From Terrimicrobium sacchariphilum (GTDB taxonomy: Bacteria; Verrucomicrobiota; Verrucomicrobiia; Chthoniobacterales; Terrimicrobiaceae): DNA of 64,000 bases. Below the pieces are notes generated by a model. It searched no databases and was not told the origin of the DNA. It was given only the letters and a program-made list of their open reading frames with translations. The position numbers and the translations under genes are program-made. The stretch is from the NCBI RefSeq assembly GCF_001613545.1, contig NZ_BDCO01000002.1, positions 2,790,001 through 2,854,000 on the forward strand, read 5' to 3'. The stretch's first letter is position 1. Each line of letters starts with the position of its first letter. Positions 27,365 through 46,593 of this stretch are shown in pieces.

Positions 27365-28714
27365 ATGTTGAAACCACCGACCAAAGGGTACGCCGCCGTT
27401 ATTGAAGAAGCTGAGTCTCAAGGCCTAGTGACTCCGCCCTCCAAGGGAACGCTTCATTGCATTGACCTCTTCGCAGGATGCGGAGGTTTGTCTCTCGGCC
27501 TTGAGGAGTCAGGATTTAAGCCATTGTTATTCAGTGAATTAAATCACTCCGCTGCCGAAACCTACATTGCCAACCGCGTTGGTCAGGGCATCATTCCATA
27601 CGGCGACATCTATCAGCTTACGGACGAAAATCTGGAGATGCTTCAGGTTAATTGGAAGTATCTGGGAATAAACGAGATCGACCTCGTTTGCGGAGGTCCT
27701 CCCTGTCAGGGGTATAGCGGAATTGGTCACCGCCGCACCTTCAAGCTCGATAAAAAAGATATCCCATCAAATCACCTGTACCAAGAAATGGCGCGTGTGA
27801 TTCGGTGTGTACGCCCAAGGGCCTTTCTATTCGAGAATGTCCGTGGACTCCTCACCTCGAAGTGGTCTGCATCGGGAAAAAACGGCGAAGTCTTCAAGGC
27901 CGTGTTGGAGGAATTCAAGAGCATCCCGGATTACTGCATTCGCTGGCAATTGGTCCACGCGAAAGACTATGGCGTGCCTCAAAACCGTCCACGGGTGCTG
28001 ATGGTCGGCATTCGCAGGGATCTAGTGGAGCCGCGCTTTCAGACTCGACTCTTTGACGAGCCCGTCACCATAGATCGACCTACAGCAGTAAAGGACGGAT
28101 TCCTGCCTGCACCTTCAGGCACAGCACCGACCTTGGTTGAGCTGCTGTCTGATCTAGAAGATCCGGGCTACCTAAGCAAGCGAGCGACAGAGTTCTACGT
28201 TAACAATCCCAAGAATGCACTCCAGCGATCACTCCGGACAAAACCAGATGGAACCCTCTTGGCAAAAGGTGATGAACTGACAGAGCAGGAATACTCGGAA
28301 CACGCCGACTATATCCGCGAGAAATTCGCCTACATGATCGCGAACAACGGCGAAATTCCTGAGAAGTACAAAACCAAGAAATTTGCTCAACGGGTTTTCC
28401 CGCGAGAATGGACTGTTTCCGGCCCAAACATCACCGCTACATCGCTCCCCGAGGATTACGTGCATTATTCCCAGCCGCGAGGCCCGACGGTTCGCGAATG
28501 GGCTCGTATCCAAACCTTTCCTGACTGGTACATCTTCCGGGGACCGAGAACTACCGGAGGTCGTCGCCGTGCCGGTGATCCCGACGCTGGCATCTGGGAT
28601 CGAGACGTTCCCAGGTATACGCAAATCGGAAACGCTGTACCCGTTCAGCTTGCGCAAAAGGTTGGCGCACACCTAGCTGGCATTTTAAGAGGATCAATTA
28701 AAGTCACTCCGTGA
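27365..28714 (+). CDS. DNA (cytosine-5) methyltransferase
   Basis: The modification subunit of a type II restriction system. Conserved C5-methyltransferase motifs appear in order: motif I DLFAGCGGLSLGLE, motif IV GGPPCQGYS with catalytic Cys114, motif VI ENVRGL (157-162), motif VIII QNRPRV (206-211) and motif X QIGNAVPVQLA. The target-recognition region lies between VIII and X, from about 220 to 400. Its stop overlaps the GTG start of the endonuclease gene (GTGA). GC content is well below that of oxyR, indicating acquisition. By analogy with the partner endonuclease family the target is probably a CCNGG-type site, which is inference. Confidence 0.95.
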   Translation: MLKPPTKGYAAVIEEAESQGLVTPPSKGTLHCIDLFAGCGGLSLGLEESGFKPLLFSELNHSAAETYIANRVGQGIIPYGDIYQLTDENLEMLQVNWKYLGINEIDLVCGGPPCQGYSGIGHRRTFKLDKKDIPSNHLYQEMARVIRCVRPRAFLFENVRGLLTSKWSASGKNGEVFKAVLEEFKSIPDYCIRWQLVHAKDYGVPQNRPRVLMVGIRRDLVEPRFQTRLFDEPVTIDRPTAVKDGFLPAPSGTAPTLVELLSDLEDPGYLSKRATEFYVNNPKNALQRSLRTKPDGTLLAKGDELTEQEYSEHADYIREKFAYMIANNGEIPEKYKTKKFAQRVFPREWTVSGPNITATSLPEDYVHYSQPRGPTVREWARIQTFPDWYIFRGPRTTGGRRRAGDPDAGIWDRDVPRYTQIGNAVPVQLAQKVGAHLAGILRGSIKVTP

Positions 28715-29898
28715 ATATACGGCCCCTGTCACATAGCGAATCGGCCAATCTTGCTGCACTCAATGAAGCGGGGGTGAAGAGCGTTTCGCTATTTGTCACT
28801 GCGACGGGCTTGCATAAGTCTATTTTTGATGCAACAGAGCCCATGCGCGCATTGTTCATTGAAGAAAAATTCCACGACTATGCACAACAAGGCCGAGGCG
28901 AACGATGCAAGGCAGTTAGGACTGCTTATGTCCATGAGGCGTCAGGAACACGCCCTGTCTCGGTATCGTTGTATCGACCCAAGACCAAGGATGGCGATCC
29001 TCGTTTTTGGATTTATGGATTTCGTCGACATGCCGCCCATGACGACGTTGTCGCCATCTTCATCCTCAACGGCGCACTTCATGCGATCAACTTAACAAAG
29101 ACGAATGTTGCAGAAGCTGTGCCCGGGTCTGAACTGGACATCTTCCTCGCCAATCTTCGGATGGCTTCCTACTCCGTCGCGAACGAGTTGCTCAAGATGC
29201 TGCGCGATATTGCCTCCAAGGGGCCAATTCTCGCCGCTTGCGCTGGATCAACCTCCGTTGGACGAAGCGTTGAATCAGCTCTCGGCATAAAAGCCAATTC
29301 AAGTCGCGATCCAGATTACAAGGGGATTGAGCTAAAGTCAGGACGCAGCCAGCTATCCGCTCGTGAAACTCGAGCGACATTGTTCGCGTGTGTTCCAGAT
29401 TGGGAGATGAGCCAATTAAAAAGCAGCGCTGAAATCCTCCATCATTTCGGATATTATCGGGGAACAACTTTCAAGCTTTACTGCACAGTTACAACGAAGG
29501 GCCCAAACCCTCAGGGGCTTCAGCTGACCGTTGACGAAGCGGCTCGATTGCTCAAGGAAGTTTCCAACAAACCCGATGCCCCAAAAGTGGCAATTTGGAA
29601 ACTTTCCAAGCTCGAGCAGCGACTGTCTGAAAAGCATCGCGAAACCTTCTGGATCAAGGTGAAGACAGAAAAAGTCTGCGGACAGGAGATGTTCCACCTA
29701 CACTCAATCACTCATACCCGTTCCCCGAACATTCCGCAGTTGGAGCGAATGCTTGTCGACGGAACAGTCACACTTGATCACCTGATAAAAAGAGTTTCCC
29801 CGACCAGAGCCAACGAAAAAGGGCCTCTATTTAAGATCGTCCGCGCTAAGATTCCTGAGCTATTCCTAGGCAAGCCGAGAACGTACGCATTGTCGTAA
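28711..29898 (+). CDS. MvaI/BcnI-family type II restriction endonuclease
   Basis: A 395-residue endonuclease. The segment TSVGRSVESALGIKANSSRD, then PDYKGIELKSGRS carries the active site of the MvaI/BcnI family (Asp202, Glu207, Lys209) with the characteristic motif around it. Members of this family cut CCWGG or CCSGG as monomers. It begins with GTG at 28711, overlapping the methyltransferase stop, and its TAA overlaps the ATG of vsr (TAATG), so the three proteins are made from one message in the order modification, restriction, repair. The first 150 residues are poorly conserved relative to what I know of the family. Confidence 0.85.
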   Translation: MNIRPLSHSESANLAALNEAGVKSVSLFVTATGLHKSIFDATEPMRALFIEEKFHDYAQQGRGERCKAVRTAYVHEASGTRPVSVSLYRPKTKDGDPRFWIYGFRRHAAHDDVVAIFILNGALHAINLTKTNVAEAVPGSELDIFLANLRMASYSVANELLKMLRDIASKGPILAACAGSTSVGRSVESALGIKANSSRDPDYKGIELKSGRSQLSARETRATLFACVPDWEMSQLKSSAEILHHFGYYRGTTFKLYCTVTTKGPNPQGLQLTVDEAARLLKEVSNKPDAPKVAIWKLSKLEQRLSEKHRETFWIKVKTEKVCGQEMFHLHSITHTRSPNIPQLERMLVDGTVTLDHLIKRVSPTRANEKGPLFKIVRAKIPELFLGKPRTYALS

Positions 29899-30362
29899 TG
29901 GTTGATGATCTTTCTCGATTTCACGGGCTGACAAGGCCACAACTGATGTCGCGGATTCGGTCACGCGGAAACAAGAAGACCGAAATTGCTCTTCTCAAGA
30001 TTCTTCGGGAGCAGAAATTCACCGGTTGGAGAAGACACGCAAAGCTGCCCGGGAAACCAGACTTTGCTTTTCCAAGATTGAAAGTTGCAATCTTTGTAGA
30101 CGGTTGCTTCTGGCACGGATGCCCACGCCATTACAAGCCACCGACCACACGGGGCGCTTTTTGGGAACAGAAGATCCTGACGAACAGGAAACGTGATCGC
30201 CGGGTGTCCCGCGAACTCAGGGCCAAGGGCTGGCAAGTAGTCCGAATATGGGAATGCGCACTGGTAGGAACTCGCCGCCCGGCCACAATCCAACGACTCC
30301 AGCGTTATCTTGCACCGTGTCCAGCAGACGCAGGCGATCTCCCCCCCGCGCAACATCACTAG
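29898..30362 (+). CDS. vsr: Very short patch repair endonuclease Vsr
   Basis: Nicks DNA 5' of the T in T:G mismatches that arise when 5-methylcytosine is deaminated, counteracting mutation at the sites methylated by the operon's own methyltransferase. Typical Vsr landmarks are MSRIRSRGNKKTE near the start, KPDFAFPRLKVAIFVDGCFW with catalytic Asp55, and HGCPRHYKPP, which supplies the histidine and zinc-binding residues. The length, 154 residues, is normal. It is translated from an ATG overlapping the endonuclease stop. The C-terminal 15 residues look like extension. Confidence 0.93.
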   Translation: MVDDLSRFHGLTRPQLMSRIRSRGNKKTEIALLKILREQKFTGWRRHAKLPGKPDFAFPRLKVAIFVDGCFWHGCPRHYKPPTTRGAFWEQKILTNRKRDRRVSRELRAKGWQVVRIWECALVGTRRPATIQRLQRYLAPCPADAGDLPPAQHH

Positions 30363-30387: not shown

Positions 30388-31281
30388 TCAATCCTTCACA
30401 TCGCGGCAGCGGGAGTCTAGCTGGCGGGCGATGAGGTCGACTTGTTGGGGGTCGAGGATGCAGAGGCCTTTGCCGAGGATGTGGGTGGGGAGGTTTTTGG
30501 GGTTCTGGACGGCGACAGGGCCGGGGGTGCGGGTTTCCACCCACCAGCCGGGGAGCGCGAGCACGGGGCGGGCGGCGATGTCGAGGCCGGTCATTTGCCG
30601 AATCCACTTGGTGAGCCATTCCGCCTCGTTCGTGGCCTGCTGGAGGCCGTAGGTATCCTCCGCCCAGGGCCAGATGAGTTGCCGTCCGTCGTAGAAGACC
30701 TTGTGATCCGCGAAGCCCTCCCGCGCGCGCCCTTTGCGCCGCGTCTTGGTCTCGATGGCAAAGAGCCCCGTCGGCCCGACCACGACATGATCGAGGTTGA
30801 ACGCCCCCTTGCCCTCATCCACCGGCACGTCGTGAAAGACCCGGTATTCGCGCGGCAGCGTGGCGAGCCATTCCCCCACCGCCCGCTCGCCCATGTAGCC
30901 GAGGAGGTAATCGCGCCGCTTGATAAAACTCCCGTACACCCACCTGCAGCTCACCACGAGGCCCACAATCAGGACGAGGGCCGCGAGGATAAGGGACGGC
31001 CAGACGAACACCTTCCCGAGCTTCGGTAGCCCCCACAGAATCAGCCAAGCGATAACCCAGGGCACAAAAACGAAGAGAAAAGCGTTTTGCGGGACATTCT
31101 CGTCCATCTGAAAAATCTTCCGCCGCAGCGTCTCCCCGGGCGCCCGCAGCAGCTTAAAATCCTCAGGCCACCTCTCTTTCGACCGTTTGCCTTTGATCAC
31201 CAAAAGGAGGAGCCCCACCGCATACGGCGCGAGTGCACACACCACGAACAACACCATACCCACGATGAAAGACTTATCCAC
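30388..31281 (-). CDS. Membrane protein with NERD nuclease-related domain
   Basis: A 297-residue protein with three hydrophobic segments (about 5-29, 66-84 and 92-111) and a cytoplasmic NERD domain from about 125. The domain has GERAVGEWLATLP, FNLDHVVVGPTGLFAIETKT with Asp164, Glu177 and Lys179, the PD-(D/E)XK-like triad of NERD proteins, and a C-terminal beta region. The start is GTG at 31281; ATG at 31257 is possible. It faces the vsr gene with 25 bases between stops, and its 5' end overlaps a TTATCCACA DnaA-type box. NERD proteins have roles in DNA processing and some are linked to plasmids. Confidence 0.8.
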   Translation of the reverse strand: MDKSFIVGMVLFVVCALAPYAVGLLLLVIKGKRSKERWPEDFKLLRAPGETLRRKIFQMDENVPQNAFLFVFVPWVIAWLILWGLPKLGKVFVWPSLILAALVLIVGLVVSCRWVYGSFIKRRDYLLGYMGERAVGEWLATLPREYRVFHDVPVDEGKGAFNLDHVVVGPTGLFAIETKTRRKGRAREGFADHKVFYDGRQLIWPWAEDTYGLQQATNEAEWLTKWIRQMTGLDIAARPVLALPGWWVETRTPGPVAVQNPKNLPTHILGKGLCILDPQQVDLIARQLDSRCRDVKD

Positions 31282-31282
31282 A
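31274..31282. promoter_or_regulatory. Perfect DnaA-box match TTATCCACA
   Basis: TTATCCACA matches the E. coli consensus TTATNCACA exactly. A single box in 64 kb can arise by chance, but it lies at the edge of the repeat-rich region of a replication-type module. I saw no other perfect copy nearby. Confidence 0.35.
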
Positions 31283-31707
31283 CGCTAAGCCTCAATTTTC
31301 CGAGCCATATGCCAAGCCGATTTTGCCGCGCTTGCTTAGCGCCCGTCCTCGCGCTAAACCTCAGCCGACCGGAAGCCCCCGCTGGGGCGTATGCCGAGGG
31401 GTTGCTTTTCGCAGCCATGAGGCCGGGCTTCCGGTTCTTTCTTCGCCCCGGCGCTCCCCTGCCCCTTGGCCGGGCGCAAGCCGCAAATCGGGAGCGGACC
31501 CTCCTCCCAGCCCTCAGACCGAACTGAACGAAGCCGGGATGCTTTCTCTGTTTTTCACGGGAATCGCCGATCCGGTTCGTTCAGCTCATCCTCGAGGGAA
31601 AACGCGTTTCGTTTCCGGCTCGTTTAGCGTTTCGTTCACCTTCGTTCAGGAAATTCTCTCCTAGGGGGCTGAACGAAGAAACGAACGAGGACTGCGCGGC
31701 AGGAGGG
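31282..31707. other. Non-coding, repeat-rich region (origin candidate, left part)
   Basis: There is no supportable gene in 426 bases. Dyads: TTAGCGC/GCGCTAA at 31336-31357; CCGGAAGCCC (31369-31378) with GGGCTTCCGG (31425-31434). From 31521 on it carries copies of CTTCGTTCAG or its complement CTGAACGAAG (31524-31533, a 9/10 copy near 31576, 31640-31649, 31669-31678). The last two form a hairpin just downstream of the nuclease-like gene that ends at 31708. It contains the first copy of the 77-bp direct repeat. Confidence 0.6.
31573..31649. repeat. 77-bp direct repeat, copy 1
   Basis: Matches 33250-33326 at 73 of 77 positions; the last 56 bases (31594-31649) are identical to 33271-33326. The unit is itself built of TTCGTT-type steps and ends in CTTCGTTCAG. 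The two copies flank the RecB/Cas4-like nuclease gene. Confidence 0.9.
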
Positions 31708-33123
31708 TCAGAACAAATTCTTTTGCACCATCGGCTGCTCCAAGGCGACCAGAGACGGCTCGAAGGTAAAGGCATTGCTCTCGTCGAAGTACCCGCAGCG
31801 GAATCTCTCGAGCGGGATGCCCGTACGCACGGACAGCATCACGGCGTAGCTGTAAATCTGCCCGGCGGCGTAGCGTTCCGCGTAGGCGTTGGGCTTGTAG
31901 TCCCAAATCCAGATGGTGCCATCCGCCTCGCACCGCAGCAGATCGATGTGGCCGGTGAGCACTCCACCCTCAGGGAAGATGGCCTCGTAGCCGTCGTACT
32001 CCTCTGCGTCCAGCCAGATCGGTATCTCCACCGCGATGGATGTCGGGTCATTTTGGAGAAAATAGCATTGGAGATTCTCATGAGCGCTCTTGTAGAGCCC
32101 TGCGCCATAGCACGCATTGGCCAAGCCGATGATTTGATGGTCGCGGTGCCGTGTGATGTTGTCTTTGATCTTTAACCTCAGCCCGGACGATGTAGGCGGC
32201 TCGGTGAAAAAGTGGTTGGGACAATCTCCATCTCTCAGCATTTGAAAGAAGTCCTGCAACTCCGGAGCGGTGCTCTTGGCTTTCCCGGTATCCACGCGAA
32301 AGCGATAGAAATTGCCATGTGCGAAGCTGATGGTGATGAGTCCCTCCTTTTGCTCCTTTTCCTTGAAGGGAATGAAATGCCCGTGGGCGCGAAGGTTGAA
32401 GCGGCTGACCTTCGCCGTCTTGCTCGGTTTATAGAGAACCTTCTTTAGGCAATCCCGCATGGCCTCTGTGCCTCCGGTATCGACCACGAAGGCGGCAATA
32501 GACACCGTGGGAACAAAAGCGCTGGCATCACTCAACCCCAGCTCGTGCGGGCTGAAGATTTGCTCGCGCAGGTCCGGGTAGTGGGAGAGGCAGCGCCGAA
32601 TTTGCGATAGCTTGGCCTTGGAGACCTGATTGCAGGGATCGAAGGCCATGAGAAATGCGTGAGGCTTTTTAAGGCCATCGTAGAGCGAATGCAGGGCATC
32701 CCGCCCGACCTGCTCGAGGCACTTGGCCGCGTCGGCCACCAGCAACGGAATGAGCGGCTCCGGGCTGGATGCATCAAGGTGGGCAAAGTCGCCCGTTTGC
32801 AAAAATTTGTATAACCGCCCTTGGGTTGTGGTGATCGTCTCGACTCGCGAGCCTTCCCGGTAGTGGGTCAGTTCGAACGTCACGGGGGATGTCCAGTTGC
32901 GCAGGAACTGGCTGCCCTCATCCTCCTTGAGCGGCGGCGCTATGGCCCGGCTCGGCGACTTTACCTGAATGGACCATTGCAAGAGCTGGACAGCCTCATC
33001 CCATGGCTTGTACCCATCGGGAGAGCTATAGAGAATATCCCCCTGCTCAAAGCGGCAAAAGCCAAGGGGGTCCGTAAATGGCGTCGGTAACGCCCACGAG
33101 AATCCGGGGAAGAACGACTTCAT
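31708..33123 (-). CDS. RecB/Cas4-like PD-(D/E)XK nuclease
   Basis: A 471-residue protein. The C-terminal third has the RecB-type nuclease core: TGHIDLLRCE with Asp394, WIWDYKPNA with Asp408 and Lys410, then AAGQIYSYAVML with Gln422 as in the QxxxY motif. An upstream acidic strand (AVEIPIWLDAEEYDGYEAIF) may supply the first carboxylate. The first 250 residues, unrecognised, include mixed alpha/beta segments and a DAAKCLEQVGRDALHSLYDG helix. It lies between two 77-bp direct repeats and before the RepA-like operon, on the same strand, so it is probably part of the replication module. Confidence 0.7.
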   Translation of the reverse strand: MKSFFPGFSWALPTPFTDPLGFCRFEQGDILYSSPDGYKPWDEAVQLLQWSIQVKSPSRAIAPPLKEDEGSQFLRNWTSPVTFELTHYREGSRVETITTTQGRLYKFLQTGDFAHLDASSPEPLIPLLVADAAKCLEQVGRDALHSLYDGLKKPHAFLMAFDPCNQVSKAKLSQIRRCLSHYPDLREQIFSPHELGLSDASAFVPTVSIAAFVVDTGGTEAMRDCLKKVLYKPSKTAKVSRFNLRAHGHFIPFKEKEQKEGLITISFAHGNFYRFRVDTGKAKSTAPELQDFFQMLRDGDCPNHFFTEPPTSSGLRLKIKDNITRHRDHQIIGLANACYGAGLYKSAHENLQCYFLQNDPTSIAVEIPIWLDAEEYDGYEAIFPEGGVLTGHIDLLRCEADGTIWIWDYKPNAYAERYAAGQIYSYAVMLSVRTGIPLERFRCGYFDESNAFTFEPSLVALEQPMVQKNLF

Positions 33124-33393
33124 GCGTTAGCGACGCTATCACGGGAGGCTGAGCGTTCAAGAAATCAAAGACGGCTTCGCTTAGAGACTCAGATAACGGG
33201 GCTGGCAAATCTTTCGCAAAAGAGCGCTTTCGTTCAGATGGTTCGTTTTCGGTTCGTTTAGCTCATTCCAGAGGGAAAACGCGTTTCGTTTCCGGCTCGT
33301 TTAGCGTTTCGTTCACCTTCGTTCAGCTTTTCCCCCTCCCCAGAGAGAAAAAACTGAACGAAGGATTTTGAACGACCCGGAGCGCCTGCGGAC
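33124..33393. other. Non-coding, repeat-rich region (origin candidate, right part)
   Basis: Holds the second copy of the 77-bp repeat and further CTTCGTTCAG-type elements at 33228-33237 (9/10), 33317-33326 and, inverted, 33354-33363; the last two can pair as a hairpin with a 27-base loop. No gene is apparent. The arrangement of short repeats beside a RepA-like gene recalls plasmid iterons. Confidence 0.55.
33250..33326. repeat. 77-bp direct repeat, copy 2
   Basis: See copy 1 at 31573-31649: same orientation, four mismatches, all within the first 21 bases. It lies between the start of the nuclease-like gene (33123) and the stop of the RepA-like gene (33394). Confidence 0.9.
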
Positions 33394-34473
33394 TTAGCGG
33401 AGGGCGTATTCGCGACCTCGCTTCACGAGCCACCCGGCCTCGATGCCGATCTTGGCCAGGCGGGAGATGGCTCCCTTGGTCAGGCCCATTTCATGCGCGA
33501 TATCCTCGGCGCTGGTGAGGCCGTCTGCGACCCATTGGCGGAAGGTGTCGAGGCTGCTGGCGGGCTTGGTCTGGATGGTGATCGAACCGTCCTCCGAGCT
33601 GTGGAAGGTCCACTCGATATTGGGCTGTTCCGTGCGGCTGTTGCGATCCTTGGTGAACATCGAGCGGAAGGTGGTTCCCTTGCGGCTGACTTCCCCCCGC
33701 AGGGTCTCATCCAGCCGGATGACCCAGAAGGCGGCGTCCTCGCGGCGGGAGGTGCCTCGCATGGTTTCCTTGTTGCGGCCCGAGTGGTGGACGACGACCA
33801 CGGCGATGCGGTGGCGGCGCAGGGTGAGGAGCCAGCCGAGGACGGATTCCCAGTCGTCGGCGTCGTTTTCCTTCATGCCGGAGAAGAGGCACGAGAGGTT
33901 GTCGAGGAAGACGATGGTGATGCCCTGGGCGAGGAGGAGCTCCGTGAGTTCGTGCTGGGCGGTGGGGCTGGCGAAATTCAGCACGCCGCCCTCGAGGTGA
34001 AAGTACGCCTCGTGGTTGAGCACGACGAAGCCCTCGCCCGCCCCCATGCCGCTCACCCGCGCCCGCAGCGCCTGGCACGGCATCTCGCCGTCGACGTACA
34101 GGATGCTCCGCCGCGCCGCCGCCTGCCAGGGGCCAAAGGCGGTGCCGTTGGTGATGGCCGTGGCCATGCCGAGGGCGAACCACGTCTTGCCTAATCCACG
34201 CGGGGCGTAGATGAACCCGAGGTCGCCCTCCATGAACCAATCGCCGAGCACGGGCTGGCGCTCGGGAATGTCGAGCGAGCCGAGCGCGGGGACGGTGCGC
34301 AGGGTGCGTGCCATGGAGCCGGGCGCGGGCGCGAGGGGTGCGGCGGGCGCCACGTCGCGCAGGAATTCGGGGACGGGCTCGGCGGGTGGTTCCCCGGCGG
34401 CGCGGGCGGAGTCGGAGGCTTGCTGGGATTTCAGGTAGTCGGAGAAGAGGCTCCAGTTTTTGGCGAAGTTCAT
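33394..34473 (-). CDS. RepA-like AAA ATPase/helicase
   Basis: A 359-residue protein of the RecA-like RepA/AAA_25 type that provides helicase activity in plasmid and phage replication. Walker A is YAPRGLGKTWF (89-99), DGEM at 128-131 is typical of this group, and Walker B is ITIVFLDNLS with Asp191. VVVHHSGRNKETMRGTS supplies the sensor region. The C-terminal 60 residues form a winged helix-turn-helix (TSAEDIAHEMGLTKGAISRL) that may bind origin DNA. The first 60 residues are a Pro/Ala-rich linker. Its ATG overlaps the TGA of the small upstream gene (ATGA). It is the last gene of a coupled four-gene operon. Confidence 0.82.
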   Translation of the reverse strand: MNFAKNWSLFSDYLKSQQASDSARAAGEPPAEPVPEFLRDVAPAAPLAPAPGSMARTLRTVPALGSLDIPERQPVLGDWFMEGDLGFIYAPRGLGKTWFALGMATAITNGTAFGPWQAAARRSILYVDGEMPCQALRARVSGMGAGEGFVVLNHEAYFHLEGGVLNFASPTAQHELTELLLAQGITIVFLDNLSCLFSGMKENDADDWESVLGWLLTLRRHRIAVVVVHHSGRNKETMRGTSRREDAAFWVIRLDETLRGEVSRKGTTFRSMFTKDRNSRTEQPNIEWTFHSSEDGSITIQTKPASSLDTFRQWVADGLTSAEDIAHEMGLTKGAISRLAKIGIEAGWLVKRGREYALR

Positions 34474-34757
34474 AGGGTGTCGAGTCGTGGTGTTAGGGTT
34501 TGGTGGGTGGAGAGGATGAGTTTTCCGTGGTTCAGTTTTTCAGACGTGGCGCGGTGGGTTGGAATGGTCGGCTCCGCGTTGCGCGGGGTCGCTATTTGCT
34601 CATGGTGGACATACCGCCTCCGGCTGACCTTGGGAGACGGCGCGGGGAGGTGGTCCGCCTGCGAAGGAAGCTCCGCCTCGCGGGCGACATTCGCGGCGGG
34701 AGACGGCTCGCTATCGGCGAAGGACGGCGCGGGGTCGAGGGTGGCGTGTGGGTTCAT
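34470..34757 (-). CDS. Small polar protein in the replication operon
   Basis: A 95-residue, probably disordered protein rich in Pro, Ala, Ser and Thr, with a basic patch (SPKVSRRRYVHHEQ). No family recognised. The support for it is positional: its ATG overlaps the stop of the primase-like gene and its TGA overlaps the ATG of the RepA-like gene, so all three form an unbroken chain of ATGA junctions. It could be a linker or accessory replication factor. The alternative is a read-through spacer with no stable product. Confidence 0.5.
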   Translation of the reverse strand: MNPHATLDPAPSFADSEPSPAANVAREAELPSQADHLPAPSPKVSRRRYVHHEQIATPRNAEPTIPTHRATSEKLNHGKLILSTHQTLTPRLDTL

Positions 34758-35965
34758 AGCGTCGGGGCTGAGGTTGGAGGTTGGGACGAATAGAGGGTGT
34801 ATTGCCTCCGCTGGTTGTCGCGGGGTCGGGCGCTGTTGGGTTCCGGCGGGGCCGCCGGGGTGAGGGTTGCGCGGGTGCCGGTGTGGCGGCGCACGTCTGC
34901 GCTGACCTCCGGAGGGACGGTGGCGGCGCTATCGCTGCCCGCGTCCATTTTCGAACAAGCCTCGGGGTTCAAAGAAGCCTCGGGGTTCAAAGAAGCCTCA
35001 GGGTTCAAAGCGGCGTCGGGGTTCAAAGCAGCCTCCGGGTTGAGGCTGAGGTCGGGGGTTGGGTCGAGGTAGAGGACGTATTGACGCTGCCCGTTGTCGC
35101 GGAGGCCGTCGGGGATGCGGACAAATTGCGACCGCGTCCAGGTGGCGCGATCCGCGCCGAGCACGCAGGCGTAGCGCATGAGGGCGCGGGCCTCGCGCTC
35201 GGGATCGCTCCCGCAGCGGAACCACCCGTGGAGCGACCGCCTGCCGCTGTGGACGACGAGCGCGAGCGGGGCGAAAAGCCCGAGGTGCGCGAGGATGGCG
35301 GCCTGTTCGTCGGGCGTGCCGCCGTCCTGCTCGATGATGAGGTGGCGGCGCGGGCCGGTATTTTCCAGCGTGTGCTGGCTCACGCGGCCATCGCGGGTGC
35401 GCCCGGTGCGGCTCGTCATGGGCGATGGCACCATGAGCGCCAGCCCGGCCAGCCTGCCGCGCCAGCGGGACCGCCGCCGCGTGGCAAAGACCGCGCTGCT
35501 CTGCCCGCAACACAGCAGCGGATCGCCGGGAAAGAGCGCGTCGACCACGGCCTCGGCTTGCGGCTCGTCATCGGCCAGGCGCACCGGGGAGGAGTCCCAC
35601 AGGTCGGTCAGGGTGAAGCCGTCATTCTGCGCCAGCACGGCGCGGCGTCGCTCGGGATCGGGCGGCGGCCACAGGGACGAAGCAGGACGCGCGGGGGCAT
35701 TCGCAGCGCCGGGCTGCCACGCGACCCGGCGGGAATTCTCCACCGCACGCTGTATCTCCTGCTCCCCGACCACGCGCCCGCATCCGGCGACGGAGGCGCG
35801 GAGCATCTCGAGGATCTCGCGCTCCGTGCGGTAGGCGTGGAGCACGCGGGCGAGGCGGAAGAGGTAGAGATTCACCCCCTGCCCCGCGCGGGGCGGAGCC
35901 GAGAGGAGGTCGCGCACGAAGCGCGGGAGTTGTTCCTCCGCCGTCCTTGGCGAACGGCCCGTCAT
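34754..35965 (-). CDS. Primase-like replication protein with hexapeptide repeat tail
   Basis: A 403-residue protein. The N-terminal 90 residues are helical (EEQLPRFVRDLLSAPPRAGQ). The middle has the layout of archaeo-eukaryotic-type primases of mobile elements: HLIIEQDGGTPDEQAAILAH, then LALVVHSGRRSLHGWFRCG, an SGRxSLHGW block, and TRSQFVRIPDGLRDNGQRQ. The C-terminal 110 residues carry five or six LNPEA(A/S) hexapeptides and a Pro-rich end. I place the start at ATG 35965 because it overlaps the TGA of the zinc-motif gene upstream; the open frame continues 73 codons further but without protein-like sequence. It likely primes replication initiated with the RepA-like ATPase. Confidence 0.65.
   Translation of the reverse strand: MTGRSPRTAEEQLPRFVRDLLSAPPRAGQGVNLYLFRLARVLHAYRTEREILEMLRASVAGCGRVVGEQEIQRAVENSRRVAWQPGAANAPARPASSLWPPPDPERRRAVLAQNDGFTLTDLWDSSPVRLADDEPQAEAVVDALFPGDPLLCCGQSSAVFATRRRSRWRGRLAGLALMVPSPMTSRTGRTRDGRVSQHTLENTGPRRHLIIEQDGGTPDEQAAILAHLGLFAPLALVVHSGRRSLHGWFRCGSDPEREARALMRYACVLGADRATWTRSQFVRIPDGLRDNGQRQYVLYLDPTPDLSLNPEAALNPDAALNPEASLNPEASLNPEACSKMDAGSDSAATVPPEVSADVRRHTGTRATLTPAAPPEPNSARPRDNQRRQYTLYSSQPPTSAPTL
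34959..35048 (-). repeat. Five 18-bp tandem units coding for LNPEAS-type hexapeptides
   Basis: Units of GCCTCGGGGTTCAAAGAA (plus strand) start at 34959, 34977, 34995, 35013 and 35031; the first two are identical and the rest differ at a few bases. They are in frame and encode Leu-Asn-Pro-Glu-Ala-Ser or Ala. Tandem copies of this kind readily change number by slippage. Confidence 0.9.
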
Positions 35966-36201
35966 TCGCGCCCCGCCTCCGCGTGGAGCATGCCGCCCAC
36001 GTGCCGGGCAAAGGCCAGCCGGTGCTCCGGGCGGCCCGTGGCGAGGTACTGCGCCGCCAGCCGCGCGGCTTCGCGCTGCCACGGGTCCCGCCGCCCGGGT
36101 TGAAAAAGCACCTCCTGGTACACCGTCGCCAGCACCGCGCGACCCGCCTCCCTCGCTCGCGGACACCGCCCGCAAGACTTGCATTTCTCCTTATATGCCA
36201 T
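35962..36201 (-). CDS. Small protein with CxxCxxC motif, first gene of the replication operon
   Basis: A 79-residue basic protein. MAYKEKCKSCGRCPRARE carries a CxxCxxC cluster that may bind zinc or nucleic acid; the rest is helical (WQREAARLAAQYLATGRPEH). Its TGA overlaps the ATG of the primase-like gene. ATG 36201 places the cysteine motif near the start; an ATG at 36225 would add eight residues. The family is not recognised. It is the promoter-proximal gene after the nested dyad at 36245-36321. Confidence 0.55.
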   Translation of the reverse strand: MAYKEKCKSCGRCPRAREAGRAVLATVYQEVLFQPGRRDPWQREAARLAAQYLATGRPEHRLAFARHVGGMLHAEAGRE

Positions 36202-36244
36202 GGGGCGATAAATAAGCAGAAACATGGGTCATTTGCGATCTCCA

Positions 36245-36321
36245 TTTTCTAAGCGAAGGGGAAAACTGCTAACAACCCTGCAAGGGTTGCAACACATGCT
36301 AGTTTTCCAGCTTTAGGAAAA
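36245..36321. promoter_or_regulatory. Nested dyad upstream of the replication operon
   Basis: Three concentric inverted repeats share one centre. Inner: CAACCCT GCA AGGGTTG at 36273-36289. Middle: GGAAAACT (36260-36267) with AGTTTTCC (36301-36308). Outer, imperfect: TTTTCTAAGC (36245-36254) with GCTTTAGGAAAA (36310-36321). Its left end is 20-45 bases upstream of the possible starts at 36225 and 36201. It could be a regulatory RNA structure, an operator for copy control, or part of an origin. Confidence 0.55.
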
Positions 36322-40866: not shown

Positions 40867-43800
40867 ATGAAAGCTCCCTGTATTTTTCTCCGGGCCATTC
40901 TGCTGGTCCTGCTCGCAACATCCGATCCCCTCTGGTCCTACACGCAGGCACACCTGCAAACGGCCCAGGATGGCACGATCGAGACGATCCCGCTGGAGGC
41001 GACCGTGCAGGAGACGCCGCCGCAGATCCGGATCAAGACCTACGCGCCGGGCACCTTCACCATCTATCGCAAGTCGCCCTCCGCGCAGGACTGGGGCACG
41101 CCGGTGGCCTCGGGCGTTTCACTCTCGGCGGAGAGCGTGTGGACGGATGCCTCCGTCACTGTCGGCACGCTTTACGAATATCGCTTCGTCAACACAGCCG
41201 CCACCTCGCTCAGCTACATCCTCCCCACCGGCTACATCCTTTGCGGGATCAAGGTGGACGGCACGCAGTCGCGCGGCCGCATGGCCGTGCTCGTCGCCTC
41301 CGACGTCCCGGCCGCGTTGCCGACCGAGTTTGCCCAGTACAGGGCCGATCTGGCGGCCGACGGGTGGACGGTGCATGAGATCGGAGTGCCTCGCGCGGCA
41401 AACTACACCGGCCTCGGCAATGGCACGATCCTGACTCTCAAGGTGAACTCCGGCGGAACCGGCTATACAAATGGCGCTTACGTCCGGCTGACCAATGGCT
41501 CGGGCAGGATCGCGCGCGGCAAGATCACCACCTCGAGCGGCGCGATCACCGCCATCAGCATCCCCAATGGCGGCGGCGGCGCAGGGTTCTCCGTCAACGA
41601 GACGCTCACGGTCTCGGGAGGTTCCAACACCGGGACGGGGGCCACCCTCATCGGTCATGTGAATCTGTCGCAGCAGGTCCTCAAGTACCCCGCCGACAGC
41701 GCTGGCGGCACCGGCTATACCTCGGGCGAGAGCGTCACGCTCACCGGCGTGACCAGCGGCCGGACCGCGCAGGCCAGCATCTACACCCTTTCGTCGGATG
41801 CGATCTACTGGCTCATCATCAGCTCCAGCCAGACCGGGTTCCTCCAGGGGGAACGTCTCATCATGTCGGGCAACACGACGGGCTCCGGCGTGGGCGTGAT
41901 CCTGGTGGATACCGTGGACGAGCAGGGAAAGCTGACCAAGGCGGGCCTCTACCCCGCAGGCCTCGGCTACATCAATGGAGAGGCCGTCACCATCACGGGC
42001 AAGAGCAGCGGCAAAAAAGCCCAGGGCTCCCTGCTAACGAACGCCGAGGGGGTGATCCTCTCCATCGATATTATCTCCAGCGAGGCGGGATTCCTCGCGG
42101 GCGAGTCCCTCGCGATCTCGGGAACCACCGCAGGCTCTGGCATGGGGGCATTCACCGCCGCAGTCGGCGGGCCGCTGGCCTCGGTCGAGGTCGTCACCGG
42201 CGGCTCGGGATACTCCGATGGCAATGTGGTGACGTTTGATACCGGGACCACCCGAGCCCAGGGCGTCCTCCACACGACCAATGGCGTCATCACCTCGGTC
42301 ACCGTCACCGCGGGCGGCACCGGCTTCAGCGATGGCGGCTACGTTTACCCCCTCGGGCTGATGTCCACCTCCGGCGGCGCGACGGCCACCGTGCTGACCG
42401 TGGACAACTCCGGCACGGGGCGAAAGGTGAACGTCACCTCCGGCGGCTCCGGCTACCGCGACAACGACCGCGTGACCATCTCCGGAGCTGGCGGGACCAT
42501 CACCGGCTCGATCATTGCGCCCGCAGGCACGATCACCGGCATTTCCGCCGTCCTGCCCGGCACCTTCGCGGCCGGGGAGACGCTCACCATCACGCCCTCC
42601 TCGGGCGGCAGCGGAGCCACCGCCAGCGCGGACGCCACGCTGACGAGCTGCCACCTGCTCATTCGCAGCGCCATCCAGGCGGTGAATACCGCCTACCCCG
42701 GTGAGCTGAAAAATCTCGCCATCATCGGCAAGGTGCCGGTCTGCCGCAGCGGACTCAACGACGGAGCCGGAGCCGATGGCCACGGCAACGTAGCGCCCTA
42801 CGGCACCGATGCCTTCTACGCCGACATGGATGGCGTGATCGGCACGGACTGGACCGATATCAACGACAACCCGACCTACAGCGCCACCGCGAATGTTCCC
42901 GGCGACGGCCAGTTTGACCAGGAGAAGATCTCGCAAGTCGGCGGCGGCGGCCGCGTGGAGCTGGGCTTTGGACGTATCGACCTCTCCCTCGGCATCCAGA
43001 CCGAGACCGAGGCGCTGCGGACGTATTTCAACAAGCTCCACCGCTACAAGACGGCTGCGGCGGACTTCCGCCCCGGTCGCCGCGTGGCGGACCGCTGGAT
43101 GTACCCCAACGAACGCGAGGCCGAGTTGCAATCCATGCCCGGCGTCGTCGGCATGGCCAATGTGGAGTTTACCACCAACGCGATGCTGCCCGTCGTGAAA
43201 AGCGGGCAGGATGCCGATCAGCTCTACACCACGCAAAACGGCCCGTACCTTTTCTATTTCAAAGGCAGCAACAGTCCGGCCAGCGGCGTCGGCGGACGGG
43301 CGGTTTTCTGGACCGGCATGCAAAGCCATTGGGGCTACTGGTACGAGTCCAGCCTGCTCACCTCGGGGTCCAACCTCATGCAAAAAGCGCTGGCCGAGGA
43401 CAGCTACACCCTCAGCTATACCTGGAACATCTGGGGCCTGCGCTACATCTACCATCGCCTGGGCATGGGCCTCGACGCGGGCGACATGATGCGCCAGAGC
43501 ATCAACAACCGTGGGTGGACCCTGGGAGGCACCTACACCTACAAGTTTTATAACCAGAACAACGGCGACTACCACGGCTCGCTCTACATGAACCACATGG
43601 GCGATCCCGCGCTGCGGCTCTTCATGTTTGAACCGCCCTCGGCGCTCAGCGTGGTCAAAACCGGCGGCGTGCCCGTTCTCACCTGGACAGCCTCGCCCGA
43701 CGCGGGCGTGATCGGGTACCACATCTATCGCGCGTCGCATGCGGGTGCTCCGTTCACCCGGCTCACCTCCGTCCCGGTGCCGGGCACGACGTACACCGAT

Positions 43801-46593
43801 GCGTCGGCCACCTCCGGCAGTGCCATTTACATGGTGCGCGCCGTCCGACTCGAAACCACCGGCGGCGGGACCTTTTACAATGCCAGCCTCGGCATTACCC
43901 AGGTCGTCAATCTCGATGTCGCACCGTCACCAGTCGCGATCACCACCTCCGCGATTTCCCCGCTCAGTTGGAACACTCCCGTCTCCCTCACGCTCTCCGC
44001 GACCTCCGGCGTGCCGCAATACACCTGGACTCTCGACTCCGGCACCCTGCCCGCCGGGCTCGCACTTTCCCCGACGGGCGTGATTTCCGGCACTCCCGCC
44101 ATGCCGGGCGTCTACGCCTTCGCCGTCCGTGTGACCGACCAGATCAACCAGACCGCCGCCCGCACCTACTCCGTCACGGTCACGTCCAACAGCGCCAATG
44201 TCCTCTACCCCGAGGCGACCACGTACACGGACAAGGCCCGGCCCACCACGTCCTTTGGCACCGACGAGGCCAGCTATATCTCCGGCGTCGCCGCCAACCA
44301 GTACGAGACCTTCCAGCGCTACGATCTTTCGGGCCTCGCGCGGAACAACAGCTTTGTCCGCGCCACCCTGTACCTCTACGTGACGAGCGGCACGACGTCC
44401 GGCACCGTCGCCAACGTCCAGGCCAATCTGATCGCCGACGCGCAGGATGGGTGGATCGATCGCGGCATCTCGCAGCCCTTCACCGGGGCGGCCAGCAACG
44501 GCTCCGGCAAGTCTCGTATTACCTGCCCCAACCATGGCTTTGCCAACGGCATCCAGGTTTCCCTCGCGGGCCTGACCGGCACGGGCGCGCCCTCCTCGGG
44601 ACCCTATGTGATCACGGTGGTGGATGCGGACCATTTCGATCTGCTCACGGTTCCCTTCGGATCGTGGACCTATGATCCCGCCCTCGCCTACGTCTCGACG
44701 GCGAGCATGACGTACAACACACGCCCCACCTCCTACAACACCACCGTGCCCACGATCGCCGGCGCGGGGGTGAACACACCCGGCACGCTCCTGAGGTTCG
44801 ACGTCACTCCGTACGTTCGCGAGACGCTCGCCAATGATCCGCTCAAGAAGCTCAGCCTGCGCTTCTTTACCGCCACCCCGCAAACCGTCGCCGTCGGCTC
44901 GGCCAATGCGTACGGCGACGCGCGGCCTTACATCGTCCTGGAAACCACCGACGGCCCCGACATCGCGGTCAACCGGCCCACGGCCAGCCCGGCGTACATT
45001 TCCCTCGGCGCGGGCCTGCTGCTCGACACGACCGTGACGCCGCTGGCGGGACGCAGCGGCGCTCTCTCCCTCGCCTGGACGAAACTCTCGGGCCCGGGCA
45101 CGGTCACCTTCTCGCGCCCGACCTCGGCAGCGACGGCAGCCTCGTTCTCCGCCATCGGCGAATATGTCGTCCGCCTGACCGCGAGTGACGGCGTGGCCTC
45201 GGCCTACCGCGACTTCACGGTCCGCGTCATCGACCGGCCCGTCACCGGTCCCGTCGACAGCAGCCTGCTTCTTTACCTGCCCTTTGATGAGGGAACCGGC
45301 ACCACGGCGGCGGACATCATGACACCCGGCGGCAAGGCCACCTTCACCGGAGGAGCCCTTTGGTCCAGCTCCGGACGCATCGGCAACGCGGCGGCCTTCG
45401 CCGGGACGGGGCAATACGCGGTCGTTCCCGACTCCGCGACGAAGCCGCTCGACGGCATGCAGCAGCTCACGGTGTCGCTTTGGATCAACCAAAAGGTTTC
45501 GGAGACCGACAGCGCCACCTACCGCACCGTCGTCTCCAAGAGCAACGGCCAATACAGCCCGATCGTCTACGAGATCAAGCTGCGCGGCGGAGCGGGCGGG
45601 AAGAACACCGTCTACGTGAGCGTGAACGGCTCGCGGCCCACCTTTTACGGCGCGACCCAGATCGGAACGAATGAGTGGAACCACCTCGTGCTCGTCTTTG
45701 ACGGCACCCAGGCGTCGGACAACGTCAGGTACTACCTGAACGGCAACCCGGAGCGGTTTTTCACCATCTCCGGCGCCACCAGCGTAGCCCGCAACGCCGC
45801 CTGCAACCTCTACGTCGGAGCCCATGACAGCGGGGATACGAAGACCTTCAATGGCATCATCGACGAGGTGCGGGTCTACAACCGCGCTCTCTCGGGCGAT
45901 GAAATCCGCGATCTGGCCCAGGCCGTTCCGAGCCGCATCGGCCCCGCCGTCAGCGTGAGCGGACCCATCTCCGGCACCACCGGCAGCGCCCTGCCCGTGA
46001 CGGGCACAGCCAGCAGCACCGCCGGGCCGGTCACGCTGCAATGGAGCGCCCCGCAGGCCTCCGCAGCCGCCACCTTTGCCAACCCGGCGGCAGCCTCGAC
46101 GACAGTGAGTTTCAACCAGCCCGGGACCTACACCGTGCGACTTACCGCCGACGATGGCAGCATCTCGACCTGGGCTGAAACCAGCGCATCCATCACCCCC
46201 GCGCCCGGCATGTCCTCGTGGCTGCAGCAGCACTTTGGCACCACCGATGCCACCGGCTCACGCGCCCCGACGGCCAACCCGGCAGGCGATGGCCTGGCAA
46301 ACCTGATGAAATACGCCCTGGGTCTCGATCCTAATACCGCCTACTCCGCAGCCGACGCGGGACTCGCTCTCGGCCAGACGACCGTCTCGGGCCAGGAGTA
46401 TCTCACCTACACCTTCACCGGCACCGCCGCCGATGTGACCTACATCGTCGAGGCGGCAAACGGTCTCGGCGAGCCGTGGACCACCATCTACTCACACAGC
46501 GGCTCGGCCCCGGGCACCGTGACCGTGAATGACACCCAGCCGATCCAGGCCGCGACCAAGCGCTTCCTGCGCCTCCGCGTCGTCAAGCCCTGA
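40867..46593 (+). CDS. Very large modular secreted protein with C25-peptidase-like core
   Basis: 1,908 residues with a signal peptide (1-24). A C25 (gingipain)-like core starts near 137 (RMAVLVASDVPAALPTEFAQ), is interrupted by five GGTGYTNG-type repeats (about 187-590), and resumes at CHLLIRSAIQAVN with GTDAFYADMDGV and VELGFGRIDLS. The usual GHG and catalytic Cys are not evident, so it may not be a protease. Then come an FN3-like segment (about 922-1015), a He_PIG-type Ig domain (about 1020-1108), a DNRLRE-like domain (about 1110-1355), an Ig/PKD domain, LamG (about 1460-1685, LLLYLPFDEGTGTT), another PKD, and a Verrucomicrobia-type C-terminal domain (MSSWLQQHFGTTDATGS ... DGLANLMKYALGLDP) that may direct secretion. 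Surface-bound or extracellular. Confidence 0.8.
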   Translation: MKAPCIFLRAILLVLLATSDPLWSYTQAHLQTAQDGTIETIPLEATVQETPPQIRIKTYAPGTFTIYRKSPSAQDWGTPVASGVSLSAESVWTDASVTVGTLYEYRFVNTAATSLSYILPTGYILCGIKVDGTQSRGRMAVLVASDVPAALPTEFAQYRADLAADGWTVHEIGVPRAANYTGLGNGTILTLKVNSGGTGYTNGAYVRLTNGSGRIARGKITTSSGAITAISIPNGGGGAGFSVNETLTVSGGSNTGTGATLIGHVNLSQQVLKYPADSAGGTGYTSGESVTLTGVTSGRTAQASIYTLSSDAIYWLIISSSQTGFLQGERLIMSGNTTGSGVGVILVDTVDEQGKLTKAGLYPAGLGYINGEAVTITGKSSGKKAQGSLLTNAEGVILSIDIISSEAGFLAGESLAISGTTAGSGMGAFTAAVGGPLASVEVVTGGSGYSDGNVVTFDTGTTRAQGVLHTTNGVITSVTVTAGGTGFSDGGYVYPLGLMSTSGGATATVLTVDNSGTGRKVNVTSGGSGYRDNDRVTISGAGGTITGSIIAPAGTITGISAVLPGTFAAGETLTITPSSGGSGATASADATLTSCHLLIRSAIQAVNTAYPGELKNLAIIGKVPVCRSGLNDGAGADGHGNVAPYGTDAFYADMDGVIGTDWTDINDNPTYSATANVPGDGQFDQEKISQVGGGGRVELGFGRIDLSLGIQTETEALRTYFNKLHRYKTAAADFRPGRRVADRWMYPNEREAELQSMPGVVGMANVEFTTNAMLPVVKSGQDADQLYTTQNGPYLFYFKGSNSPASGVGGRAVFWTGMQSHWGYWYESSLLTSGSNLMQKALAEDSYTLSYTWNIWGLRYIYHRLGMGLDAGDMMRQSINNRGWTLGGTYTYKFYNQNNGDYHGSLYMNHMGDPALRLFMFEPPSALSVVKTGGVPVLTWTASPDAGVIGYHIYRASHAGAPFTRLTSVPVPGTTYTDASATSGSAIYMVRAVRLETTGGGTFYNASLGITQVVNLDVAPSPVAITTSAISPLSWNTPVSLTLSATSGVPQYTWTLDSGTLPAGLALSPTGVISGTPAMPGVYAFAVRVTDQINQTAARTYSVTVTSNSANVLYPEATTYTDKARPTTSFGTDEASYISGVAANQYETFQRYDLSGLARNNSFVRATLYLYVTSGTTSGTVANVQANLIADAQDGWIDRGISQPFTGAASNGSGKSRITCPNHGFANGIQVSLAGLTGTGAPSSGPYVITVVDADHFDLLTVPFGSWTYDPALAYVSTASMTYNTRPTSYNTTVPTIAGAGVNTPGTLLRFDVTPYVRETLANDPLKKLSLRFFTATPQTVAVGSANAYGDARPYIVLETTDGPDIAVNRPTASPAYISLGAGLLLDTTVTPLAGRSGALSLAWTKLSGPGTVTFSRPTSAATAASFSAIGEYVVRLTASDGVASAYRDFTVRVIDRPVTGPVDSSLLLYLPFDEGTGTTAADIMTPGGKATFTGGALWSSSGRIGNAAAFAGTGQYAVVPDSATKPLDGMQQLTVSLWINQKVSETDSATYRTVVSKSNGQYSPIVYEIKLRGGAGGKNTVYVSVNGSRPTFYGATQIGTNEWNHLVLVFDGTQASDNVRYYLNGNPERFFTISGATSVARNAACNLYVGAHDSGDTKTFNGIIDEVRVYNRALSGDEIRDLAQAVPSRIGPAVSVSGPISGTTGSALPVTGTASSTAGPVTLQWSAPQASAAATFANPAAASTTVSFNQPGTYTVRLTADDGSISTWAETSASITPAPGMSSWLQQHFGTTDATGSRAPTANPAGDGLANLMKYALGLDPNTAYSAADAGLALGQTTVSGQEYLTYTFTGTAADVTYIVEAANGLGEPWTTIYSHSGSAPGTVTVNDTQPIQAATKRFLRLRVVKP
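41427..42648 (+). repeat. Five GG(T/S)GY-type repeats within the C25-like core
   Basis: About 75-85 codons each, with the pattern VxxGGTGYxxGxxVxLTG, a glycosylation-prone Ser/Thr stretch, then IxSxxxGFxxGExLxxSG and NTxGxGxxx. They sit inside the C25-like fold between its first strand pair and the CHLLIRSAI helix, so they form one large inserted beta domain. Confidence 0.75.

Follow-up and report, generated by a model that had tools for sequence, protein, structure and literature searches.

A helicase-primase locus of Terrimicrobium sacchariphilum as a probable resident derivative of a PICI-like satellite family of Verrucomicrobiota

The question raised by this locus is whether a short chain of chromosomal genes in Terrimicrobium sacchariphilum, encoding a RepA-like ATPase, a primase-like protein and two small proteins, is the replication module of an integrated plasmid or satellite, as an earlier note on the DNA had proposed, or a stable core locus with the same gene order at the same site in most relatives. 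The window (the whole stretch analysed: 64,000 nucleotides, C2:2790001-2854000 of source genome G000, an assembly of 4,751,807 bases in three contigs) was compared with two congeneric genomes (G001 and G002) and with more distant relatives; extracted stretches carry L-numbers. The locus probably derives from a family of small PICI-like (phage-inducible chromosomal island-like) satellites of Verrucomicrobiota and is now resident, with no recognised integrase. As far as sequence comparison goes, small tRNA-integrated elements in other members of the phylum are built around the series primase, (polar protein), RepA, origin-like unit. The locus is resident in the genus because the same block stands at the same site in 3/3 genomes, and it is not a core locus because RepA (E 1e-40) was found in only 17 of 384 class genomes (an even draw from a larger group, with a limited number of candidates scored per genome) and because one set of six relatives from outside the genus is integrase-linked throughout. 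The proposal of a module from an integrative element therefore stands, with a satellite as the best description; the plasmid part of it is not supported.

All four genes lie on the minus strand. The small CxxCxxC protein (35962..36201; 79 aa from the ATG at 36201) is followed by the archaeo-eukaryotic-type primase-like protein (34754..35965; 403 aa), a small polar protein (34470..34757; 95 aa, without a family match in Pfam or PHROGs) and the RepA-like hexameric-helicase-type ATPase with C-terminal winged helix (33394..34473; 359 aa); the gene coordinates confirm ATGA at all three junctions, as four-base overlaps at 35962-35965, 34754-34757 and 34470-34473. RepA matched AAA_25 (E 1.8e-25, Pfam), which upholds the ATPase assignment, and residues 320-352 weakly matched a MarR-type winged helix (E 0.0049, below Pfam's cut-off). 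Because a search of PDB sequences with the RepA profile gave nothing at E 0.01, predicted folds were compared, for both enzymes by re-ranking Foldseek's top 1000 chains. The AlphaFold model of RepA (predicted local distance difference test, pLDDT, 84.4) was closest to RSF1010 RepA (1g8y: Z 21.9, root mean square deviation (rmsd) 2.9, 219 residues aligned, 19% identity); three RSF1010 RepA entries headed the ranking (Z 21.4-21.9), RadA came next (19.4), and KaiC and DnaB-type folds lay at or below 19.4. The primase gave only weak family matches (PHROG primase, E 0.00094), but its model, of moderate confidence (mean pLDDT 62.7), was nearest to RSF1010 RepB' (3h20: Z 9.9, rmsd 3.4, 145 aligned; 3h25: Z 9.2), followed by S-2L PrimPol (Z 8.4) and cellular primases (about 7), which favours the primase assignment. 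The RepB'-like catalytic domain covers residues ~131-305, and the family alignment contains conserved E/D-x-D, SGxxSLHxW and downstream R-x-P blocks, which we take to be the motifs of archaeo-eukaryotic primases (AEP). The tail consists of low-confidence repeats; an 18-bp tandem repeat within the gene (34950-35059) codes for a repeated hexapeptide there. On these models, both enzymes have predicted RSF1010-type folds.

Two origin-like units accompany the operon. Unit A (33227..33365, plus strand, 139 bp, TTCGTT(C/T)-type iterons and a dyad) and unit B (31560..31688, plus strand, 129 bp) share one design, in which direct iterons of a single word precede a palindrome centre with inverted iterons, and the dyad end of each points to the 3' end of a gene, repA at 28 bp from its stop for unit A and the PD-(D/E)XK nuclease gene at 19 bp for unit B. 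The paired direct repeats noticed earlier (77 nt, 95% identical, at 31573-31649 and 33250-33326) are real and form the cores of the two units. Folded as DNA, the unit A dyad was better than all 200 shuffles (z -3.8), and 12 of 200 shuffles were as good as the unit B dyad (z -1.7). A unit model without base pairs (R1, trained on 16 units from five genomes, window units A and B included) matched 14 of the 384 class genomes at E 1e-5, and 12 of these were among the 17 with RepA (P 3e-17); excluding the five training genomes, 7 were shared between 9 unit and 12 RepA genomes in 379 (P 1e-10). The gap between the ends of the unit and repA matches was -6 to 52 bp in 11 of the 12 shared genomes. G409, which has a unit and no RepA match, keeps 32 aa of a RepA C-terminus within the 2.1-kb stretch that holds the unit; in G127, 1,982 bp close to the end of a contig showed neither RepA nor a remnant, and G127 is the only such unit genome outside the genus. 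Independently of the model, an over-represented heptamer was present in the 350 bp 3' of repA in 49 of 91 loci; the count was 5 of 90 for upstream DNA and 1 of 91 for random stretches (single-base shuffles; three genomes counted twice; 2 of 93 loci dropped with too little downstream DNA). The heptamer words vary from element to element; a tie between iteron word and RepA recognition helix was not convincing, as CGTTTCC loci carry both forms. Across these genomes the candidate origin is tightly tied to repA. Four viral contigs of 8-56 kb (L065-L068) contain RepA relatives (39-43% identity) with TCTTGCA iteron arrays 3' of repA.

From these parts, replication can be pictured as follows. Through its winged helix, RepA would bind the iterons 3' of repA, load as a hexamer and open the dyad, and the RepB'-like primase would start synthesis on the exposed hairpin; the parallel would be RSF1010 RepA and RepB' at single-strand initiation (ssi) sites, with iteron binding here built into the helicase itself. 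An integrase of its own would have excised the ancestral element, which a helper phage would have packaged, and at the present locus defence and nuclease genes would come and go, some of them between the duplicated origin units.

The satellite assignment is carried by the relatives. Alignment-based scans gave 46 RepA loci in viral contigs, where a single-protein scan had yielded no confirmed locus, and 43 in genome contigs, of which 36 read as Verrucomicrobiota. A tyrosine integrase was encoded in the same stretch in 43 of 93 RepA loci, many of them truncated by contig ends, and in 37 it lay upstream on the same strand; this, with the RSF1010-like folds, supports an integrated replication module. 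Direct repeats of 21-70 bp overlapping a tRNA gene and enclosing 5.1-14.5 kb were found in 6 of 14 integrase loci tested: L017 (49 bp, 5.1 kb, tRNA-Arg), L021 (34 bp, 9.2 kb, tRNA-Gly), L022 (70 bp, 6.0 kb, tRNA-Ser), L128 (34 bp, 5.9 kb, tRNA-Gly), L116 (21 bp, 9.7 kb, tRNA-Glu) and L020 (40 bp, 14.5 kb, tRNA-Thr). A satellite-type description fits best, with six relatives of 5-14.5 kb flanked by tRNA attachment (att) repeats and a small terminase subunit in two of them. L017 combines integrase, HTH_17, RepA and Terminase_2; L021 has a small-terminase match (PHROG) without HTH_17; HTH_17 was above cut-off in L017, L022 and L116, in the last two without terS. The primase family lies at most 300 bp upstream of RepA in 10 of 93 loci, the window among them; an eleventh, weak match in L071 is on the other side of RepA, and L020 has a Toprim primase in place of the RepB'-like family. 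A homologue of the CxxC protein stands directly upstream of RepA in L116 (39% over 76 aa, pairwise E 2e-10) and shares its C-terminal WQREAARL...H region, with weaker homologues in L120 and L020. Type I restriction genes follow the origin in L019. On gene content and att repeats, these relatives read as PICI-like satellites. Searches of 72,556 plasmid records (a set that may lack those of this genome or very close ones) and of 50,697 phage records gave no RepA match at E 1e-5, so that the earlier suggestion to look for homologues in plasmid and phage databases returned none at this threshold and the plasmid reading is not supported.

Within the genus, G000, G001 and G002 all carry the module in the same place. 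The G002 block is flanked by katG-oxyR and the gene at 37.2 kb, as is that of the window, where the oxyR-like gene ends at 27.3 kb; in G001 the block has the same order and adjoins the genes at 36.7 and 48.6-59.0 kb, the other side being a contig end (the names katG and oxyR, like the aminotransferase-like, HU-like and IS3-type names below, are ones we assume from the look of the proteins). An empty site was not found among the three genomes. This constancy bears on whether the element is still mobile, as a satellite or integrated plasmid excised by a recombinase supplied in trans. An intact operon under purifying selection would fit, and the duplicated units could permit excision by homologous recombination; the shared site, the lack of repeats of at least 10 bp between the edges and the lack of a plasmid or phage relative at E 1e-5 argue the other way, and we consider continued mobility very unlikely.

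Rates of change were compared between module and flanks. Flanking proteins are 89-100% identical, except for a 1908-aa protein (75%, G002) and a 53-aa fragment (62%, G001), and module proteins 63-89%. Median synonymous divergence (dS) of the flank was 0.26 (15 genes, 0.07-0.58) against G002 and 0.28 (8 genes, 0.21-0.39) against G001, with median non-synonymous divergence (dN) of 0.023-0.024 and omega (dN/dS) of 0.09. RepA, primase and the NERD-domain protein beside the module gave dS 0.33-0.51, dN 0.11-0.23 and omega 0.26-0.58, and the small protein dS 0.17-0.38 and omega 0.19-0.41; for RepA and primase, dN was 7-10 times the flank median and dS only 1.4-1.7 times in both comparisons. The module is therefore under purifying selection and kept intact, yet evolves fast at the protein level; it may be at most somewhat older than its surroundings, and exchange with related elements is possible. 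A domesticated chromosomal locus, in which the helicase-primase pair serves the host, for example in defence, and no longer replicates an element, would explain both the fast protein evolution and the place among defence genes, and would suit the constant site, the missing integrase and a cargo that includes restriction, methyl-directed restriction, HNH and Abi_alpha genes. We nevertheless hold domestication to be unlikely, as PADLOC gave no match for the RepA, NERD or PD-(D/E)XK proteins and an origin-like unit, needless for a non-replicating enzyme, has been retained beside repA.

A second, lone RepA gene stands at a further shared site in G001 and G002 (L015:9256-10272, L016:9232-10248). 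Its dS of 0.95 is far above that of two flanking genes (0.23 and 0.30), pointing to replacement or separate gains. An empty site for this locus in G000 was considered and rejected, since two other genes are found there instead.

Several observations weigh against descent from a satellite family, or against the unit as its origin. No integrase was matched in the window, where an integrase-model scan bore out the earlier statement, or in L013-L016; no helix-turn-helix (HTH) regulator or terminase family was matched among the window proteins scanned around the module, and there are no repeats of at least 10 bp between the two edges of the window locus that could serve as att repeats. A tRNA att repeat was not found in 8 of the 14 integrase loci tested. 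RepA occurs without an R1 unit at the cut-off in G039, G056, G203, G248 and G319; in G002 every R1 match at E 1e-5 is at the rhaA site described below, and the shorter units next to its repA, recognisable by eye and as dyads, reach only E 0.003 with R1. No significant iteron word was seen in 42 of 91 RepA loci, and the shuffling in that test was by single bases. The lone RepA genes of L015 and L016 have a long hairpin upstream and not 3' (DNA fold of the L016 hairpin, z -9.9), the primase model is only moderate, and in this genus the unit is also found away from RepA.

These distant units were followed in all three genomes. Between an aminotransferase-like gene and rhaA, a site without RepA, there are four strong units each in G000 and G001 and three in G002 (L047:8060-10075, L048:9540-11740, L049:8700-11330); 3 of the 4 G000 units lie 6-39 bp 3' of a gene, and iteron words at the same position vary between species. 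In all three genomes three or four CGTTTCC dyads lie downstream of an HU-like gene (L174:4870-5910, L175:4966-6901, L222:4618-5666). A clean one-gene cassette insertion at this site was unsupported, G001 having different DNA between the dyads and G002 being colinear with G000. Counted per genome, CGTTTCC dyads matched 4, 13 and 14 times in G000, G001 and G002 (overlaps separate; reversed-pattern control 1, 0 and 0) and 0-7 times in the other 94 genomes (control 0-4), a weak count in which most single matches look like chance. These locations bear on whether the units are ordinary intergenic repeats, of the repetitive extragenic palindromic (REP-like) or terminator-like kind and unrelated to replication. 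Several units at the shared rhaA site (L047-L049) do stand just 3' of host genes, and dyads occur near the HU-like gene (L174). Outside the genus, however, the unit adjoins RepA, or a RepA remnant in G409, with G127 as the one genome where no RepA was seen. In the window region, terminator-like sites were at shuffle level (7 vs 6.2) with none at the units, and Rfam gave no match at E 0.1. Repeats of this ordinary kind are a very unlikely explanation.

A tree of 17 units, with several low supports, placed the G000 copy after a 140-aa gene with the rhaA copies (85% identity to its own rhaA copy), not grouped with its positional counterparts in G001 and G002 (58-65%), and window unit B was nearest to the first unit of the rhaA site (78-80%), which suggests that units were converted or moved between sites. 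At the RepA locus variable DNA lies between copies of the unit, arrays without RepA occupy two further conserved chromosomal sites, and some copies resemble units of another site more than their positional counterparts; the origin unit could in this genus be an exchangeable element, on which the resident RepA and primase would act in trans to amplify, excise or swap origin-flanked cassettes; it would be likened to an integron array or to IncQ satellite plasmids, but origin-based. We regard this as a tentative idea and quite unlikely, and keep to a resident satellite derivative.

The cargo around that derivative differs between the three genomes. The window holds a restriction-modification cassette (27365..30362, plus strand; C5 DNA methylase, MvaI/BcnI endonuclease and Vsr), variable cargo without a match in the congeneric stretches L013 or L014, and, between units A and B, the exonuclease-like PD-(D/E)XK nuclease (31708..33123, minus strand), which also has no match in L013 and L014; the protein, described earlier as RecB/Cas4-like, matches the PDDEXK_1 family. 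Between the units nearest repA, G001 has a 158-aa open reading frame and G002 no gene. The G002 cargo comprises Abi_alpha, DUF3825, a match to a methyl-directed restriction enzyme and an HNH-endonuclease gene interrupted by transposase-like genes (L013:4504-5721, IS3-type by eye); in G001 the HNH gene is unbroken (L014:18660-19640). The NERD-domain protein (30388..31281, minus strand) accompanies the module across the genus (75-82% identity), and the polar protein has a partial homologue in L014 (50% over 74 aa). The perfect DnaA box TTATCCACA noticed earlier is present at 31274-31282, the only one in the window; it overlaps the NERD start codon, is absent from 20-kb stretches of both congeneric loci (L013, L014) and looks coincidental. 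The dyad upstream of the operon likewise exists as a 17-bp palindrome (36273..36289), a possible operator, and is only partly conserved, being a perfect palindrome in neither relative. Two very large proteins are predicted elsewhere in the window (40867-46593 and 10938-16880; 1908 and 1980 aa).

Verrucomicrobiota would thus harbour small satellite-type elements whose helicase and primase are of the RSF1010 type and whose origin sequence analysis can locate; among the open-licence literature matches listed, titles and abstract openings did not describe satellites of this phylum. The locus also suggests how an element of this kind may give up mobility and still keep its replicon over roughly the lifetime of a genus, in a place where defence genes accumulate. 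As predicted, the origin is short enough for direct cloning.

Among known systems, the CCPol-MP-Cch2 operon of SCCmec (staphylococcal cassette chromosome mec) is also a primase-helicase operon in a chromosomal cassette, but it has an A-family polymerase with MP as primase and a 3'-5' helicase. SCCmec is moved by serine recombinases. Plasmids of the archaeal pRN1 type share an AEP primase, a winged helix and a stem-loop origin 3' of the replication gene, as passages of PMC4234260 describe them, and differ in having one fused protein with an SF3 helicase, on a plasmid. RSF1010 and the IncQ plasmids provide the best structural matches of both enzymes, and the candidate origin of the window resembles theirs in having iterons and a foldable dyad; the IncQ mechanism, in the passages of PMC6925257 concerned with it, uses RepA helicase, RepB' primase, repC and an oriV with ssi sites. 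The window module is by contrast chromosomal, without a recognised repC or mobilisation gene (no RepC-like match among the operon proteins in Pfam and PHROGs, the polar protein being without family), has a winged helix fused to RepA and its unit 3' of repA, and is only about 19% (RepA) and 9% (primase) identical in structural alignment. For PICIs, parts of PMC6092414 give the order pri-rep-ori followed by phage-interference or terS genes. The published Escherichia coli PICI ori has two iteron sets flanking an AT-rich stretch. Here the unit is an iteron block with a dyad, and at the window locus no integrase, AlpA/MerR-type regulator, terminase or att was found; among its relatives, integrase, HTH_17 regulator, small terminase and tRNA att sites all occur, though few loci combine them, and the window itself keeps the PICI order of primase and rep, with the candidate origin unit A directly 3' of repA.

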